Assembly (NCBI GenBank): GCA_025526915.1
Contig: JAHLKH010000457.1
Location: 1-11,283 of the forward strand
Origin: Entophlyctis helioformis
Taxonomy: Eukaryota; Chytridiomycota; Chytridiomycetes; Chytridiales; Chytriomycetaceae
Direction: 5' to 3'
Length of the DNA stretch: 11,283 bases
Notes under the pieces: model-generated
Told to the model about the DNA's origin: nothing
What the model saw: the letters and a program-made list of their open reading frames with translations, nothing else
Databases searched by the model: none
Translations under genes and position numbers: made by a program
Shown here: positions 3,905-11,283 of the stretch, one piece after another
How positions within the stretch are numbered: the stretch's first letter is position 1
How the letters are laid out: each line of letters opens with the position of its first letter

Positions 3905-3977
3905 AGCCCGACGTGGGGGTCGAACCCACAACCTTAAGATTAAGAGTCTTACGCTCTACCGATTGAGCTAGCCGGGC
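3905..3977 (-). tRNA. tRNA-Lys(CTT): tRNA-Lys (anticodon CTT)
   Basis: The minus strand folds into a full cloverleaf: acceptor GCCCGGC with GTCGGGC (one G-U), T8-A9, D stem GCTC/GAGC, anticodon stem TAAGA/TCTTA around the loop CTCTTAA with anticodon CTT, a five-base variable loop, and T stem GTGGG/CCCAC with loop TTCGACC. There is no intron and no encoded CCA, as expected for a nuclear eukaryotic gene. Internal A box (TAGCTCAATCGG) and B box (GGTTCGACCCC) supply the Pol III promoter. It reads Lys codon AAG. Confidence 0.98.
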
Positions 3978-3998: not shown

Positions 3999-4208
3999 TC
4001 TGCCCACCCACACTCCATGCGTGCCACTCGGTGCACAACAGCCACTGCAAAACCACAAAAGCGACCGTGTCCTGCCACTCTTGTGCCATCCACTGGCCTG
4101 CGTTAGATGCTGCCAAGTCGCACAGCACAGCCTTCATCGTCGGCTCCTTCTGCAGTCGCTCAGTGGCACTCCTGAGCTGGCTGGTGGCAGACACTCACAC
4201 TCTGCCAG

Positions 4209-4227
4209 CCAATCAGCGAGCGCCGCG
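4209..4227 (+). promoter_or_regulatory. Near-ERSE (CCAAT-N9-CCGCG)
   Basis: On the plus strand CCAAT at 4209-4213 is followed after nine bases by CCGCG at 4223-4227, one mismatch from the ER stress response element CCAAT-N9-CCACG. It is the mirror partner of the perfect element on the other strand. Confidence 0.45.
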
Positions 4228-4237
4228 TAGCAGCCGC

Positions 4238-4256
4238 CGTGGGCATCGCTGATTGG
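4238..4256 (-). promoter_or_regulatory. Perfect ER stress response element (ERSE, CCAAT-N9-CCACG)
   Basis: Read on the minus strand, CCAAT (4256-4252), nine bases, then CCACG (4242-4238) matches the ERSE consensus exactly. In animals NF-Y binds the CCAAT half and ATF6 or XBP1 the CCACG half. The site lies 116-134 bp upstream of the start codon of the HAC1/XBP1-like gene, a position that would suit autoregulation. The motif match is seen directly; use of this element in the fungus is inference. Confidence 0.65.
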
Positions 4257-4371
4257 CCGCCTGCCCCTCTCTGCGTCCCTCTCTGCGACCAGCACCTTCA
4301 TAAGCAGCGCTGCTGCCCGTGCCTGTCTGGCCATCCTCCCACTGCTCCCACTCCCACTGCTCCCACCAACG

Positions 4372-5432
4372 ATGCTGTCGCCGCTCGCCATCCGCCCTGC
4401 CGCTGCCGCACAGCCCTCACAGCCCACACAGCCCTCGCTGCTGCCGTACCCTACTGGCGTCCACATGCTCTCGCCCGTTGCGTCGCCGCCTGCCACTGCA
4501 CCAGCCAGCCGCAAGCGCAAGGCCTCGCTTGCGTCGTCAGACGGCGGCTCCTCTGCTGGCACCACTGCTGGCTCCACAGCTGGCTCCTCTGGCCCTGCGG
4601 GCAAGGACGACAAGGCCCGCGACCGTGCACAGCGCAACAGAGAGGCGGCGCAGGAGTCGCGGGACCGCAAGAAGCAGCGCATGGCCGAGCTCGAGGACCA
4701 GAACGCAAGCCTGCGCCGCTCCAACGCCGCCCTGGCCACCCGGCTGCAGGCCATCGAGTCCTCCAACCAGGCGCTGCTGGACCGTCTCGAGGCTCTGTCG
4801 TCGCAGCTGTCGCAGGTGGCATCGATGCAGCACTTGCAGCCCTTGCCGATGCAGCACTTGCAGCCCTTGCAGCCCTTGCAGCACCATCAGTTTGCCAGCA
4901 ACGTCGCCGTCACATCGCCGCTTCTGCCGTCCTTCACCTTCAACCACATGGCCCCCGTCAGCAACACCACCACCACCACCGACCACAGCCACCTGCTGCA
5001 GTTGCCGCTGCCCGCCTCGCTGCACTCGCCGCCTGCGTCGGCCTCCGCTCTGTCTGCATACACATCGCCGTCGTCAGCGTCGCCATCGCCACTGCTGCTG
5101 GCCCGCACAACCAGCGCCAGCACCAACGCCGCCGCTGCTCCAGCAGCCGCACAGGCACACCCGTCCACCGGCACCTGCGAATCCGAAGCATTCGCAGATC
5201 CCCAGCAGTGGGTGCCTTCTGGACGGGCGCCGACCTCGCCTCGCTCTTCCAGTTCCAGCCCCCAAGCCCATTCAGCAGCGGGCACGGACTCTCTGCCGGC
5301 AACGGTGCCCTCGCGTCCGGCCTCGCGCTGCAGCACTGCAGTGTCGACGCCGGCGTCTGTGCACCGCTCTCCGCAGAGGCCTTCCTTGCCTCGCTTTCAC
5401 CACTTGGTGATGGCCTTGGACTCGAGCTGTGA
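4372..5432 (+). CDS. HAC1: HAC1/XBP1-type bZIP transcription factor of the unfolded protein response (20-nt Ire1-type intron at 5186-5205)
   Basis: Joining 4372-5185 to 5206-5432 gives 347 codons, a 346-residue protein. The basic region (about 80-103) has N89-R90-E-A-A-Q-E-S-R97, the bZIP N-x7-R signature, in the form RDRKKQRMAELE that resembles XBP1. A perfect zipper follows with L107, L114, L121, I128, L135 and L142. RKRK at 47-50 may be a nuclear signal. Residues about 150-270 are Ser/Pro/Ala/Gln-rich. After the splice a new 75-residue tail begins AVGAFWTGADLASLFQF and ends LGLEL, rich in Phe, Trp, Leu and Asp like an activation domain. Without the splice the frame continues to 5694 (440 residues). 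The start has A at -3 and no ATG lies in the preceding 250 bp. The role, ER-stress gene activation in the nucleus, is inferred from the bZIP type plus the intron structure. HAC1 is the family assignment, not a proven orthology. Confidence 0.86.
5170..5216 (+). promoter_or_regulatory. Twin stem-loop Ire1 splice structure in the bZIP mRNA
   Basis: The 5' hairpin is an 8-bp stem (5175-5182 with 5190-5197) closing the seven-base loop CCGAAGC at 5183-5189. The 3' hairpin is CCC (5200-5202) with GGG (5210-5212) closing the loop CAGCAGT at 5203-5209. Both loops have C1, G3 and G6, the positions conserved in HAC1/XBP1 loops, with cleavage expected after G3. GGCA at 5170-5173 pairs with TGCC at 5213-5216, closing both hairpins into one junction. 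Confidence 0.88.
5186..5205 (+). other. Non-spliceosomal 20-nt intron (Ire1 plus tRNA ligase)
   Basis: Cleavage after G5185 (CCG) and after G5205 (CAG) removes 20 nt. It has no GT-AG ends. Twenty is 2 modulo 3, so its removal moves translation from the 440-residue frame into a frame that ends at 5432. Filamentous fungal hacA/hac1 genes are also known for a 20-nt intron, and human XBP1 for 26 nt, giving the same frame change. Confidence 0.88.
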
Positions 5433-5928
5433 GGGCAGCGAGCGTCGTGCCTGTGCGTCTGCTGCCGCCGCCTGTGTTGCTCCTGCTGCTCGTTGTGCCG
5501 TGTCTGCATGCTCTGCCGATGCCGATGTCTGTGACGCTGACCCCATGCAGGCAAGCCGTTGGTCGTCCCAGTCGCACTCGCAGCCGCCGCGCCTCCACAA
5601 GCACTCGTTTGAGCAGGTCGTCTCGCTCGCACACTCGCAGTGGCAGCGTCGTTGCTACCCCATCTCGTCGCAGATCCTCCAGTCTCTGCCTTGAGCACCT
5701 CCTCCTTTCTATCCTGTACATCTTTACATCCAATACATACCACCCTGTTCGTCCCAGTCCAACCACTTCCGCTCGCCCGTCCAACCTCTTCAGCTCTACC
5801 TTCCCCAGCCAGACTGCCTTGAATGTCACTCGACTCGTTCGAGCCATATCGACACGACCGACGACCCAATCCCACAACCGCAATCAATGCACAGCACGCG
5901 TCCGTCCGCAGCAGCACAGCCAAGCGAG
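5433..5928 (+). other. 3' flank of the bZIP gene / upstream region of U2
   Basis: No separate gene is supported here. The first 262 bases continue the unspliced reading frame of the bZIP gene to the TGA at 5692-5694, with a Cys/Ala-rich and then Ser-rich translation unlike a folded domain. A GT-AG intron-like block (5429-5550) with a good branch motif lies inside. From 5695 the sequence is pyrimidine-rich, with CTGTACATC and CAATACATA that might guide 3' end formation; no AATAAA is present. Confidence 0.5.
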
Positions 5929-5966: not shown

Positions 5967-6153
5967 CATCCTCTCAGGCCTATTGGCTAAGATCAAGTGT
6001 AGTATCTGTTCTTTTCAGTGTGACAACTGAAACTCGGGATTCGTCCCGTTTGTTGTCAAACTTATTTTTGACTCGGGTCCTTGCGGGTCGTTGCTTGCAG
6101 CGCTCGCTAGGGCACTGGTGTCGCTCCTATCGCACTACCTGGAGCTGACGCCG
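5967..6153 (+). ncRNA. U2: U2 spliceosomal snRNA
   Basis: The 5' third is near-identical to U2 of yeast and animals: GGCC-TATT-GGCTAAGATCAAG, then the branch-site pairing sequence GTAGTA at 5999-6004. Stem IIa is TTCAGT/ACTGAA (6014-6019, 6026-6031), and stem IIb is CGGGA-TTCG-TCCCG (6035-6048). TGACAAC (6021-6027) is complementary to GTTGTCA (6052-6058), the IIa/IIc toggle known in U2. The Sm site TTATTTTTGA is at 6062-6071. Stem-loop IV pairs 6117-6127 with 6141-6152 around a loop resembling the human TATTGCAGTACC loop. Length is about 186 nt (human 188). Ends are accurate to a few bases. Confidence 0.96.
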
Positions 6154-6392
6154 AGTGTGTGCAACCACCACACTGCCACCTCAATCCCGACAAACCCCAA
6201 AAACAATATGAAAACACCACACTGCTCTGCAGTCTGACCGATGTGGTCAATGGCCAGGATGTGATTCAAGGAAGGATGTGACGGCTGGTGGTTGGTGGGA
6301 CAAGCTGCCCGCTGAGCTGCCAACGGCTGTTGTTATAACGACGTTCAAAGCAGCGTGGACATACCCGCTATCATTGACAGACACGACCAGGG
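6154..6392. other. Short intergenic region between U2 and the PPR gene 3' end
   Basis: I see no gene here. U2 (plus strand) and the PPR gene (minus strand) converge on these 239 bases, so both 3' ends are formed here. No clear snRNA 3' box or hairpin was recognised. Confidence 0.5.
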
Positions 6393-9300
6393 TCAACGTG
6401 CGTTTATTCCATCGTCGTCCAAAAGCGAGCTCACAATGGCAACGAGATCGGCCATGCGCTGACGGTCCTCGGCTGCAGTCGACGCCTTTTGCACGTCGCC
6501 GATCAAGCGCGCAAGCCTTGCCCTGTGGGCCATACACAGCTGGTGCTCGTTGCGCCACACTGGCGGCAGTACCGTCAGCAGCAGCTTGCTGTCCACAACA
6601 GCATGGATGAGTCCGCCGTCCGTCCGCTTCAGATGCTCCACATTGAGCAACATATCAAACGCTTCGTCGTGGTATCCCATGCGGCAGAGCGCCTCGGCGT
6701 ACGAGCACAGAATGCCGCCAGTGACAACAGGGACCAGATCGCGCCGTGACAGGACCGTGTGCCACGCGTCGTCAAGAATGCGGCGGTCGCTGCTGTGGAA
6801 TCCAATCGCATCCAAGTACGTGGCCGCAAGAGCTGGCACAAACATCACGGGCATCGCTGTCGCCGGCAGCCGAGGCCGGCCGCGCCAGTCTTGGTCCACG
6901 CACGACCGCCAGACGCGCGTTGCTCCGTCAAAGTCCTTGCCGAGATTGTATGCCTTGAGAAGCACGGCCATGAGGCTGACGTCAATGGCCATGCCGGCCT
7001 GGATGGCATCCTGGATGATCGTCTCGCAGGTGGCCGGGTCACCGAGAATCGCATAGTAGTCCATGGCCGACGCCAGTACGAGCCGAGTGATGGGAACCCC
7101 ATGCGACCGCATCTCTTGGAGGATGCTGTATGGATCGAGCCGCGCGTCGACTGCCGATGGCTCCGCAGCCAGCGCTCCTTGGCTGTCGCCACCTTGGCGT
7201 CTGCCTAGGTCCGAGTGTTTCTCGGCCGCCCCTTGGATGGCCACGAGCAGCGCCTTCCATGACTCGTAGCCAAGAGGCTTGCCGGTCGTGTCCATGTGGC
7301 TGGCATAGAGGCGGTCGAACCACTCGCGGGCATGGCGCGGCCCGTGCGTGATGCCTGTGACATACACAATCCTGTCCACCGTCTCGGAGTGGATCCACAC
7401 ACGCGGCGAGACGGCCTTGACCTCGTCAAAGAACTGAATCGCAGACTCGAAGCCAGTCGTGGTGCCGTCCGACGAGACACTCGGCCGGCTCGTTTGGCAG
7501 AGCCATTCCAGCATGGCGGCAGAGAGCGCTGGCGACGGGCCAGGCAAGTAGTCTCGTGCAATGGTGTACCACTGCCACACGCCAGCCACGTCACCGGCAG
7601 CCATGTGCGCGCGGACCACAAACGACAGCTCGGCATCGGTCCGGTGCCGTCCTGGTCCCATCAAACGAATAGTGTGTGTTCAAGCACGCCACGGCTCCCT
7701 CTGCGTCACCGGTCGATGCATACGCACGAAGCAGAGCAACGTGGATGGATGCGAGATAGCCAGGGACGGTATGCTGCCGAGGGGCCATGGATGGATCCAG
7801 CTCATCGAGACCGCTTTCTTGCTTCCCTGGGATCGCCGCCTGCAGACGCGCATCAATAACATGGCGCGATGCCGCCCGCCATTCAGAGAAACTCGGCAAA
7901 CCGAGCCAGTGCACTCTCCTTGTCTTTTGCCAAGGCGTGTGTCGTGATCATGAAGAGGACCGCCGACAGGACTTGACTGACCAGGTTCTCCTCCTCGTCC
8001 TCTGCCTCGATCTTGTTCAAGGTCGGTTTGGCGCTCGCGACAGTGTCCTGGCGGCGATCAATGTCCAGAACCGTGCGTGTCGGGCCAACCAGTCTTGCGA
8101 TTGGGGTGGAGAGCATCTCTTGATACGCTTGGACTGCGCCGCGGAGGTCGCCCAGCACAACAAGGCTCTTGATACGGGCCTTGAATAGGGTCGCTGGATG
8201 GACGATGCCACGATCCCGCAGCACACTCACACAGTGCTCGATGGCCTGAACGTCTCCGCGCATCGAGGCCGTGTCCATAAAGACGTACACAAACAGTGGC
8301 TCCAACTTGACGCCTGAGGAAACAGCCTCGTCAAAGACGCGCTTGCAGCGAGCCCAGTCTGGCTCGCCCGTCTCGTCCTGACAGAGCATGTACATTGTGT
8401 ACACGAGCGACGTGGGCTGGACGCCGCACGACAGCATGTCCGCCCACACGCGCTCCAGTGCCTGCGCGTCGCCAAGAACACGTCCGGCATGGCGAAGGAG
8501 CGGAAAGTAGGCCCACGTCGTGAGCTCAAAGTTTGGGATCGCCTTGGCACGCTCGACCTCGGCACACGCGTCCCTGAAGCCAATCCGCGGGTCCTTGTGG
8601 AGCAGCAGTGCTTTGAGAATCATGGACAGCGTCTGCATGCGGTACTCGATGCCAGGCAGCTCGACGAGGAGCCTGGCTGCTGACGGCGTGGATGGAATGA
8701 CCTTGTTGACGTTGCTCCCAACAACACGCGTGATCTGTGCCTTGTCGAGGCCGAGTATCTTTAGGCGTTGCATGATACGCACGACTCGCTCGGTGTCGAC
8801 GCTCTTGATAGCAGCCTGCAGCCTGCGCAACTCGGTGCCTGCCAACGCCGTCCTGAACGACTGCAGTGCTGCTCGATTTGCAGACGCATTGTCAGATTGC
8901 TGGGCTGCGGCTGTAGACAGTGCATAGCGCAGCGTCTCAATGACGGCGTCGCGCTGCTGCTTGGCAATCTCCGAGTCGGCCGCGTGGGTATCAACAGGCT
9001 TGCTCAAAGACTGCGGCCGGTGCCGCTGCTGATGATGCCGATGCTTTTGCGCATGGGTTTTGGCGTAGGCAACGAGCGCGGCATCGGGAACAGCCATGAT
9101 GTAGGACCAGAGATCCTCAAACAGCTCCTTGGCTTGCTCGGATGTCTGGCATCCGCTAAACAAACCGCCAACGAGCCAGGCATTCGCAGGAACCATCGTC
9201 TGCTGCTTGACCACCGACCAAAGGAACGGCATGCACCCCAGAATCTTGTTCTTGTGGCACATGGATATCATGCTTGTGACCAGCGCGTTGCTGATCAAGG

Positions 9301-11283
9301 TGGCATGGTCGGATGCGACTGCTGCTAAATCGCCCATGATGCGATCGCCAAACGCACAGGACTCGGGCGACGCAGGATCTCTGTTGTATGTGCTGAGGAG
9401 CTTCATCGTCGTCTCGCGCCAGAAACTAACCAGCTTGTCGGCGCTCTGGCCTCTATGAACGGCGTTCGGTTTACGAGCGAGTTCCGAGGCAGCGATAATC
9501 GTCGCGGGGTCAAAGAGAATGCTGTGCGCGTGTCCAAGATACCCGTGCATGATAAGCGATCTTGCCAAGAGAACCAGCAGGGACATCCGTGATGTTTGTG
9601 ATTGGCCCCGATCCGGCGTACGCTTGGTATCGGCGACTGTGTGGAGTGGCGCCAGCAGATACGCTGGACTGGGCATGGTTTGGGACGGCTGAGCGTTCAA
9701 AATGTCCATCTTCTTGACAATCATGGGCTCGAACCCAGCGTCGTTTGTTTTGGCGGCAAGCAACGTAGCTGACAGCAGTCCAAGGTCGCGGCGGATGGGA
9801 ATGCCGTACTTGTGCATCAGACCAAAGTAGACGTGGCCAGCTGTGGCGCGTCCATCTGCAACTGCTTGCTCGAGCTTGCTTTCCAGGACTGCGGCTGGGT
9901 CCGCAGTGCGTGATAGGCTAGAGCTGGAGCTGGAGCTCGAAGTACTCTCGCTGCGTGCAGGCGATCCCCACACGGCCGGCCTGTCAAGCAGAGGAAGCCG
10001 CTTGAGTACCTGGTCCACAAACCTCGCAGCCGCACCAGACTCGATAAATCCGTCCGGCAATGCAGAGCTCCGTGAGAATGCCAACGTCCTGGTACGATCG
10101 CATGCGCCACCGAACAGATCCTCGACAAGATGCACCGCCTGCAGTCTTGCAAAATGGGCGGCGATGGTCTCAAAGACGGCGTATGGAACGTCTGCGTGCC
10201 GATGAGTGACATGATAACACGCAGCCTGCGCATCTTGTGTTGTTTTGCCAGTTGGCGAGGCTGGTGCCATAGTAGAAGATCTCGAGAGCATCCGTGGCAG
10301 TTGGCACGGCAGGCGATGTTGGAGTTGTGGAAGTGACTGACGCAGGTGTGGTGATGGGTGCAGCAGCTGGCAGAGAGTCTGCTTGGCATTCAAGGTGGTC
10401 AGGGAATGGAATGAATCGGCGTTGCCAAACAGACACACTAACCATGCAAAGGGCCAGATCCAGGCGCTGGCTGCACATGCGCTCCTTGAACCAATGCCTG
10501 CAAGAGGCTCGGGCAGTTGCGGCTCCAGCTTGAGAGCTTGCGCCAGTGCATCGGAATCGGCCGTCGTGGCCAACGAACGCAGCACAAGGCTTGCGGCGTC
10601 TTGCAGGCCGGCATCCAGCAGCCGGCGTGCGAGCCGCAGCACTGCAAGGGCATCAGCAATGTCGCCATCCGGTGTGGCTGCGTCTTGCACTTGTTTGCAT
10701 GCGGACCGCGTGAGTTGATGCTGCCCCATGATCCGATCCAGCTTGGCGTGTGCATCGGCAGGCACAATATCACGCCAGCCTTCCCTGAAACCGCGTGGAT
10801 GCGGATGGCGAGGATGGCCTCGAGAAACATGTCTGCTTGAACGAAGCGCACGATTGCATTGGACTCCCGCACGTTCATGTCATCGGCGGTCGATGCTCTC
10901 AACAGGTTTTCGGTCGTGGGCTGGTACGCCTGTGCACCAGCGCGTGCTGCCGGATCCAGGCTCGCCGGCGACGGCCGATCGTTGATGGCAGGCGGCCGAC
11001 TCGTTGGTTTGGGCAGCTTTCGCAGGCGCGACTTGAGCAGCGCGACCGAGGCATCGGCAGAGATCTGATCGAGAGAGCCGCTGCGAGTGGCGACCAGAGT
11101 CTGCCACACTTGGTCGATGCCACGATGGTGGCCGTGACGATCAAAGAGGACAATGAGGTCCGACCATGCTTTGGCATCGATTGGCCGCCGGTACCATCCA
11201 CCGTCCAGCTTGGATGCCAGATGGGCAAGACGGGGGAGCTGTCCTGCAGATTGCATGTCGTTGAACGCATCCAGCCTGCAGAC
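6393..11283 (-). CDS. Long pentatricopeptide-repeat (PPR) protein, 5' end off the right edge, reading frame interrupted
   Basis: Six consecutive minus-strand frames form one PPR-type protein of about 1,600 residues ending at TGA 6395-6393: about 11283-10797, 10797-10498, 10498-10244, 10244-7890, 7889-7658, 7658-6393. Typical helix-pair units are visible: NAIVRFVQADMFLEAILAIR, DADALAVLRLARRLL-like helices, TWAYFPLLRHAGRVLGDAQA, LFVYVFMDTASMRGDVQAIE, SIHVALLRAYASTGDAEGAV, LSFVVRAHMAAGDVAGVW and LMAVLLKAYNLGKDFDGA. A Ser run lies near 9910-9945 and a His-rich linker near 9005-9045. PPR proteins of fungi generally bind mitochondrial RNA in processing, stability or translation; any targeting peptide would be beyond the window. 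The largest intact pieces are 7883-10765 (960 residues) and 6393-7664 (423 residues). No introns fit the changes, so they look like one-base errors or decay. Confidence 0.75.
6403..6408 (-). promoter_or_regulatory. Possible poly(A) signal AATAAA of the PPR gene
   Basis: AATAAA on the minus strand lies within the last codons of the PPR frame, eight bases before its stop codon. If used, the 3' UTR would be very short; it may also be a chance match. Confidence 0.3.

Follow-up and report, generated by a model that had tools for sequence, protein, structure and literature searches.

A putative HAC1/XBP1-type mRNA with a 20-nucleotide Ire1 intron in the chytrid Entophlyctis helioformis

Does a bZIP gene of the fungus Entophlyctis helioformis carry, concealed within its coding sequence, the kind of short intron that Ire1 removes from HAC1 and XBP1 messages? 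The Ire1-HAC1/XBP1 switch is common to fungi and animals, and chytrids are a lineage in which it has been little studied. What is known of stress responses in fungi is confined for the most part to Dikarya, according to the available text of a 2021 study (PMC10512342); the same text reports Ire1 in anaerobic gut fungi and names no HAC1 among the genes queried. A literature search on HAC1 and Chytridiomycota yielded no description of a chytrid HAC1 intron in the portions of text retrieved. Hooks and Griffiths-Jones surveyed 156 species in 2011, and in 28 of these no conserved structure was found, according to the citation in the accessible part of PMC3561209.

The stretch of DNA analyzed here in full (11,283 nucleotides, hereafter the window) had been given a first-pass annotation from its letters, which proposed an HAC1/XBP1-type mRNA with a 20-nucleotide Ire1 intron and supposed that the host might be an early-diverging fungus. 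The latter guess fits the NCBI assignment of E. helioformis to Chytridiomycota. As for the former, we infer, with a probability of roughly 92%, that the gene is a chytrid HAC1/XBP1 orthologue from whose mRNA Ire1 excises 20 nucleotides, the cutting, the joining, the stress dependence and the activity of the exposed tail being predictions from sequence. The Rfam match, the bZIP domain, a tail free of lysine and arginine, the IRE1 and ligase genes of the host, and all four copies of the gene agree with this reading. Its features are the following.

4372 to 5694, plus strand: open reading frame of the unspliced form (HAC1u/XBP1u-type), encoding a bZIP transcription factor (Pfam bZIP_2 1.7e-9, bZIP_1 7.9e-9).
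4603 to 4785, plus strand: coding region of the bZIP domain, residues 78-138, with an XBP1/HacA-like basic region (Pfam; alignment to references).
5161 to 5167, plus strand: 5′ arm of the outer stem, CCGTCCA, pairing with 5220-5226 (Rfam, folding).
5170 to 5173, plus strand: GGCA, pairing with TGCC at 5213-5216 to close the twin hairpin (pair probabilities).
5175 to 5197, plus strand: 5′ hairpin with an 8-bp stem and the loop CCGAAGC, of the CNG/ANGN type (slash at the cut), predicted Ire1 cut after G5185 (sequence, folding).
5186 to 5205, plus strand: predicted Ire1 intron, 20 nt, frame-shifting (from sequence).
5200 to 5212, plus strand: 3′ hairpin with a CCC/GGG stem and the loop CAGCAGT, of the CNG/CNGN type, predicted cut after G5205; a CCA/UGG register is its rival.
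5213 to 5226, plus strand: 3′ arms of the enclosing stems, TGCC at 5213-5216 and TGGACGG at 5220-5226 (Rfam, folding).
5206 to 5432, plus strand: tail of the spliced frame, 75 amino acids including the joint codon, with no Lys or Arg and its stop codon ending at 5432; the unspliced frame codes through the same stretch (dual coding).
5433 to 5694, plus strand: tail coded by the unspliced frame alone; four copies differ here in two columns and by one in-frame 18-nt indel.

An open reading frame scan of the window finds the uninterrupted frame of 440 codons at 4372-5694 on the plus strand, and Pfam confirms a bZIP DNA-binding domain in its product (bZIP_2, 38.1 bits; bZIP_1, 35.9 bits). This domain had been described as XBP1-like. 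Indeed, in BLOSUM62 local alignments to seven references the best scores belong to human XBP1 (105) and Aspergillus HacA (101), with CREB1, GCN4, JUN and ATF6 lower at 68-82 and yeast Hac1, which is also the shortest reference used, lowest at 56; all seven reference sequences are unverified, and the scores depend on them. The genome contains 11 bZIP_2 matches, of which four are copies of this gene, and the other seven have GCN4, ATF6, CREB1 or JUN as their best reference in the same set. Solved structures match the bZIP region weakly, with CREB first at E 0.003. Searches for homologues at E ≤ 0.001 returned none, either for the full 440-residue protein, a low-complexity query (7,992 candidates scored), or for residues 76-150, a query that is short for 5.8 billion sequences (155 candidates); with queries of these kinds, the absence of orthologues does not follow from either search.

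The element itself spans 5161-5226 and is built from two hairpins with seven-base loops, CCGAAGC at 5183-5189 and CAGCAGT at 5203-5209. Its anatomy is as the first-pass annotation had described it: C1, G3 and G6 are present in each loop, the 5′ stem is a perfect 8 bp (5175-5182 with 5190-5197, all Watson-Crick), the stretch from the G3 of one hairpin to that of the other (G5185 to G5205) delimits exactly 20 nucleotides at 5186-5205, and GGCA at 5170-5173 pairs with TGCC at 5213-5216 to enclose both hairpins, with pair probabilities of 0.89-1.0. The 3′ stem has three pairs (5200-5202 with 5210-5212, CCC with GGG). Beyond that description, an outer stem of 7 bp joins 5161-5167 to 5220-5226 with pair probabilities of 0.92-1.0. 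The Ire1 loop rule, as given in the available text of PMC6037481, is CNG/CNGN or CNG/ANGN; the 3′ loop fits the former and the 5′ loop the latter variant.

This arrangement is recognized by an established RNA family. Specifically, the Rfam model RF04247 (Hac1/Xbp1 intron) aligns over its whole length, positions 1-72 of 72, with 5161-5226 of the plus strand, at 41.3 bits and an E-value of 2.6e-5, a narrow pass at 0.3 bit over the gathering score of 41. The available text of the Rfam 15 paper (PMC11701678) describes the family as found in Metazoa, and a full-length chytrid match goes beyond that statement. A genome-wide search with RF04247 returned nothing in this genome, with only 73 of 6,625 first-look candidates scored; because the search missed the window's own element, this blank result is uninformative on the other copies.

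The rarity of such a loop pair was measured by counting loops of the form CNG[A/C]NGN on stems of at least 8 and 3 bp, at a spacing of 15-40 nucleotides that is not a multiple of three. A pair of this kind arose in 6 of 20,000 synonymous-codon shuffles of the gene and in none of 10,000 dinucleotide shuffles. When the criterion is relaxed (5 or 6 bp plus 3 bp) and the whole window is scanned, a single pair is found on the plus strand, at this very place, and none on the minus strand. The RNA also folds more stably than its shuffled counterparts, with z-scores of -4.1 for 5161-5226 (as stable in 0 of 200 shuffles), -3.2 for 5150-5240 (1 of 200) and -2.5 for 5170-5216 (4 of 200). Stability alone is not strand-specific, because the reverse complement of 5161-5226 likewise reaches z -4.1.

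The 3′ hairpin is where the predicted structure counts against the reading. The minimum-energy fold places it in another register, CCA/UGG with a four-base loop, at -30.2 kcal/mol versus -26.8 for the Ire1-type structure, a difference of 3.4. The CCC/GGG pairs that would make this hairpin Ire1-competent have probabilities of 0.01-0.03, and those of the 5′ stem 0.92-0.99. Either IRE1 binds and captures a minor form of the RNA or the prediction for so short a stem is off.

Deletion of 5186-5205 shifts translation into a frame that ends at 5432, in line with the original proposal, and the predicted spliced product has 346 amino acids compared with 440 for the unspliced protein. The tail entered in this way had been called rich in Phe, Trp, Leu and Asp. 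Its 75 residues include 13 Leu, 5 Phe and 1 Trp, and so the Leu/Phe-rich part of the description stands, but with merely 3 Asp (5 acidic residues in all) the Asp-rich part does not; Lys and Arg are absent altogether. We evaluated this tail against a null in which the codons of the unspliced protein were redrawn 20,000 times from the gene's own usage. In 7,400 of these redraws the spliced frame was open equally long, and thus openness of the frame alone is weak evidence. None of the 7,400 open redraws produced a tail free of Lys and Arg, the mean there being 6.5 such residues, and therefore the tail exposed by the 20-nucleotide deletion has, in its composition, the look of an acidic/hydrophobic activation domain maintained by selection. 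The third frame, which a 19- or 22-nucleotide deletion would open, encodes 17 Lys/Arg.

The four copies of the gene lie on contigs C457 (the window), C154, C170 and C47. The C154 copy is 99.4% identical to the window over 5.9 kb and, judged by this likeness, is probably the other haplotype of the window locus. Those on C47 and C170 are separate loci, which places the gene at no fewer than three, that is, at least three separate loci. An identical 27-nucleotide element is found in all four copies. When they are aligned, no column varies at 5080-5226, four vary at 5227-5432, two vary at 5433-5694 in addition to the one 18-nucleotide indel, and 31 vary in the 3′ UTR at 5695-5790. Positions 5080-5160, outside the hairpins, are invariant too. 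Because the invariance reaches upstream to 5080, the hairpins by themselves do not explain it, and recent gene conversion may be the source of part of it. The four copies come from one genome and, being identical in the element, offer no covariation. The C47 copy (14995-18150 of that contig, minus strand) is frameshifted behind the bZIP region and before the element and, as assembled, enters the spliced-frame tail directly, without splicing. The frameshift may be an error of the assembly, or else the copy may be decaying or may encode a form that is always on.

The portion of the gene that is read in the unspliced frame alone raises a further possibility. Because this private tail (5433-5694) is nearly invariant across separate loci whose 3′ UTRs have diverged, one might suppose, with considerable reservation, that the unspliced isoform is itself selected and translated, in the manner of XBP1u in animals. 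The alternative to selection on this tail is conversion between the gene copies. If the unspliced isoform does function, then a functional translated unspliced form could predate the split between fungi and animals. For a membrane anchor like that of XBP1u, the unspliced tail has one weak candidate, a hydrophobic stretch with a best 15-residue Kyte-Doolittle mean of 1.44 at residue 366.

A search for IRE1 and a Trl1-type ligase had been advised at the outset, and both proved to be encoded in the same genome, which was searched by profiles over 29.57 Mb in 482 contigs. The IRE1/RNase L nuclease domain has 14 exon matches, corresponding to about seven genes on contigs C1, C167, C207 and C134 (loci L021-L026), some of which are perhaps haplotype copies. 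One gene on contig C1 (L021) has lumenal, membrane, kinase and RNase parts; it begins with a sequence resembling a signal peptide and contains a hydrophobic segment resembling a membrane span. Its kinase-RNase part, assembled by hand into one query from the frames of its exons, scores up to 400 bits with IRE1 structures (2rio, from yeast). One of these hand-made joints falls within the catalytic stretch RNK-KHHY, of which the genome contains both halves. A Trl1-type ligase on contig C10 is recognized exon by exon, in neighbouring frames, by PF09511, PF08303 and PF08302, and comprises adenylyltransferase, kinase and cyclic-phosphodiesterase (CPD) domains. The profile search for RtcB gave no match in this genome and was positive in 9 of 14 control genomes.

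Some observations concern the other IRE1-type genes. The one that adjoins the canonical IRE1 on contig C1 has upstream no more than a hydrophobic stretch, rich in alanine and lying in a different frame, and its sequence offers no evident membrane-spanning sensor part. The copies on C167, C207 and C134 have kinase frames that resemble one another, and a simple motif scan found KHHY in the two C1 genes alone.

Taken together as an HAC1/XBP1-type switch, these components would operate as follows. Without stress, any translation of the mRNA would produce the 440-residue unspliced form. Under ER stress, activated IRE1 would cut after G3 of each loop, at G5185 and G5205, by the cleavage mechanism that the available texts of PMC6037481 and PMC3470409 present as established. 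Cutting would free 5186-5205 while the enclosing stems keep the exons paired, such that the Trl1-type ligase could join 5185 to 5206. The resulting shift of frame would yield a bZIP factor of 346 residues, whose acidic/hydrophobic tail, devoid of Lys and Arg, would act as an activation domain.

Other explanations of the same data deserve consideration. The gene might descend from HAC1/XBP1 and retain a real element, and yet the copy in the window might be unspliced or poorly spliced while another copy does the work. The existence of four copies, the frameshift in the one on C47 and the weak register of the 3′ hairpin speak for this account, which we nevertheless regard as improbable: both frames are open in the window copy, and all four have the very same element, so that whatever weakness the 3′ hairpin has is common to every copy. 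We give a still smaller chance to the idea that the hairpins are accidental features of an ordinary GC-rich bZIP gene that encodes the 440-residue protein alone. GC-rich coding DNA folds easily, the opposite strand folds equally well, and an open spliced frame is commonplace among the redraws (7,400 of 20,000), all as this idea would have it, but the loop pair is rare (6 of 20,000 shuffles), the Rfam model matches, a tail without Lys and Arg never appeared (0 of 7,400), and the genome encodes IRE1 together with a ligase.

Alternatively, the hairpins could be sites of IRE1-dependent decay (RIDD) rather than of splicing. There is precedent in fission yeast, where Ire1 cuts mRNAs for decay and there is no HAC1, according to the available texts of PMC3470409 and PMC6037481. 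Decay sites of this kind are a most improbable explanation for a structure with two strict seven-base loops 20 nucleotides apart, enclosing stems and a frame-shifting length, in a genome with a ligase. Excision of a 20-nucleotide intron from an HAC1/XBP1-type mRNA is the reading that we retain.

By anatomy, the closest known systems are HAC1 and hacA of filamentous ascomycetes. In Verticillium dahliae HAC1, for example, the intron is 20 nucleotides long, as is the predicted intron here, and the unspliced protein exceeds the spliced one (526 versus 417 amino acids; available text of PMC8071499), again as it does here (440 versus 346). The same text gives 20-26 nucleotides for the introns of filamentous ascomycetes. 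Unlike ascomycete HAC1, the gene described here belongs to a chytrid host, has A after the cut in the 5′ loop CCGAAGC, and is present at several separate loci.

Metazoan XBP1 has a 26-nucleotide intron and overlapping frames. The chytrid gene resembles it in the twin loops and enclosing stems captured by RF04247, in its best bZIP score among the references and in the overlap of its frames. It differs from metazoan XBP1 in its predicted 20-nucleotide intron and in an unspliced form that is longer than the spliced one, and also in the presence of a Trl1-type ligase with no RtcB match in the genome and the weakness of the hydrophobic stretch in the unspliced tail.

With HAC1 of Saccharomyces cerevisiae and Candida albicans it shares the Ire1 loop rule and, by prediction, Trl1 ligation, whereas the intron lengths differ, at 252 and 19 nucleotides, respectively (available text of PMC6222058). 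The intron of C. parapsilosis HAC1 has 626 nucleotides according to the available texts of PMC6222058 and PMC8071499. An intron of 20 nucleotides leaves little room for the pairing between long intron and 5′ leader that is typical of yeast. Ustilago maydis Cib1 and Cryptococcus Hxl1 are bZIP mRNAs spliced by Ire1, as the chytrid mRNA would be, and the U. maydis intron has 65 nucleotides (available text of PMC8071499) versus 20 here. The chytrid case would fit the idea that this intron was originally short in fungi and that the long introns of yeasts came later.

This case is unusual for its host lineage, for the presence of the gene in several copies and for that of several IRE1-type genes. 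If the HAC1/XBP1 reading is true, both the switch, with at least three HAC1 loci, and the sensor, with about seven IRE1-type genes, have multiplied in this chytrid. With both substrate and sensor multicopy, the organism might serve for research into the diversification of the pair.

Upstream of the gene, the alignment of three loci reveals one more conserved feature.

4204 to 4263, plus strand: conserved promoter inverted repeat (CCAATCAGCG...CGCTGATTGG), a candidate element (alignment of three loci).

Within this repeat 58 of 61 columns are identical in the three loci, and the corresponding counts for the flanks are 20 of 133 at 4140-4203, 27 of 37 at 4264-4300 and 67 of 86 at 4301-4371. The repeat contains an exact match to CCAAT-N9-CCACG on the minus strand at 4238-4256. 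Genome-wide, this pattern has 58 matches versus 14 for the backwards pattern. We dropped the reading of the match as an ERSE, given that spacings of 10-14 yield 285 matches, or 57 per spacing, and there is no N9-specific enrichment. For 30 of the 58 sites, the surrounding 3 kb or so (L037-L066) were scanned for simple motifs, and neither an HSP70 nor an ER-retention motif was encountered. A J-domain-like frame (HPDK) lies about 0.8-1.4 kb from one site (L052, on contig C48 around 124749) and may be a gene for a DnaJ protein. CGHC/CPHC strings occur near two other sites (L043 and L056) and have no clear meaning.

The remainder of the window holds the following features.

6 to 1794: minisatellite of about 25 copies of 72-bp units, with a higher-order period of 216 bp, open in several frames.
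3905 to 3977, minus strand: tRNA-Lys (CTT), 68.7 bits.
5968 to 6160, plus strand: U2 spliceosomal RNA gene, just downstream of the bZIP gene (RF00004, 134.7 bits).
6393 to 7661, minus strand: long frame with sub-threshold Pfam matches (TPR_14, E 0.029; CdiI_ImmP, 0.039; PPR, 0.099).
7883 to 10729, minus strand: long frame with no Pfam match.

One of the frames through the minisatellite extends from 173 to 2203 and has 676 amino acids. The U2 RNA gene is retained beside the C47 and C154 copies of the bZIP gene and not beside the C170 copy.

In the genome as a whole, Fungal_trans has 31 exon matches, chitin synthase six and the flagellar protein IFT46 four, the last all in one place (contig C120). 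This content agrees with a zoosporic fungus as the source of the sequence. NCBI lists E. helioformis under the order Chytridiales. A chitin synthase of this genome, the one marker compared, is 100% identical over 735 residues to that of E. helioformis; the next best matches outside the species are those of Batrachochytrium salamandrivorans (72%) and Polyrhizophydium (71%), and both of these genera belong to Rhizophydiales. Judged by this likeness, the order assignment of E. helioformis may need revision.
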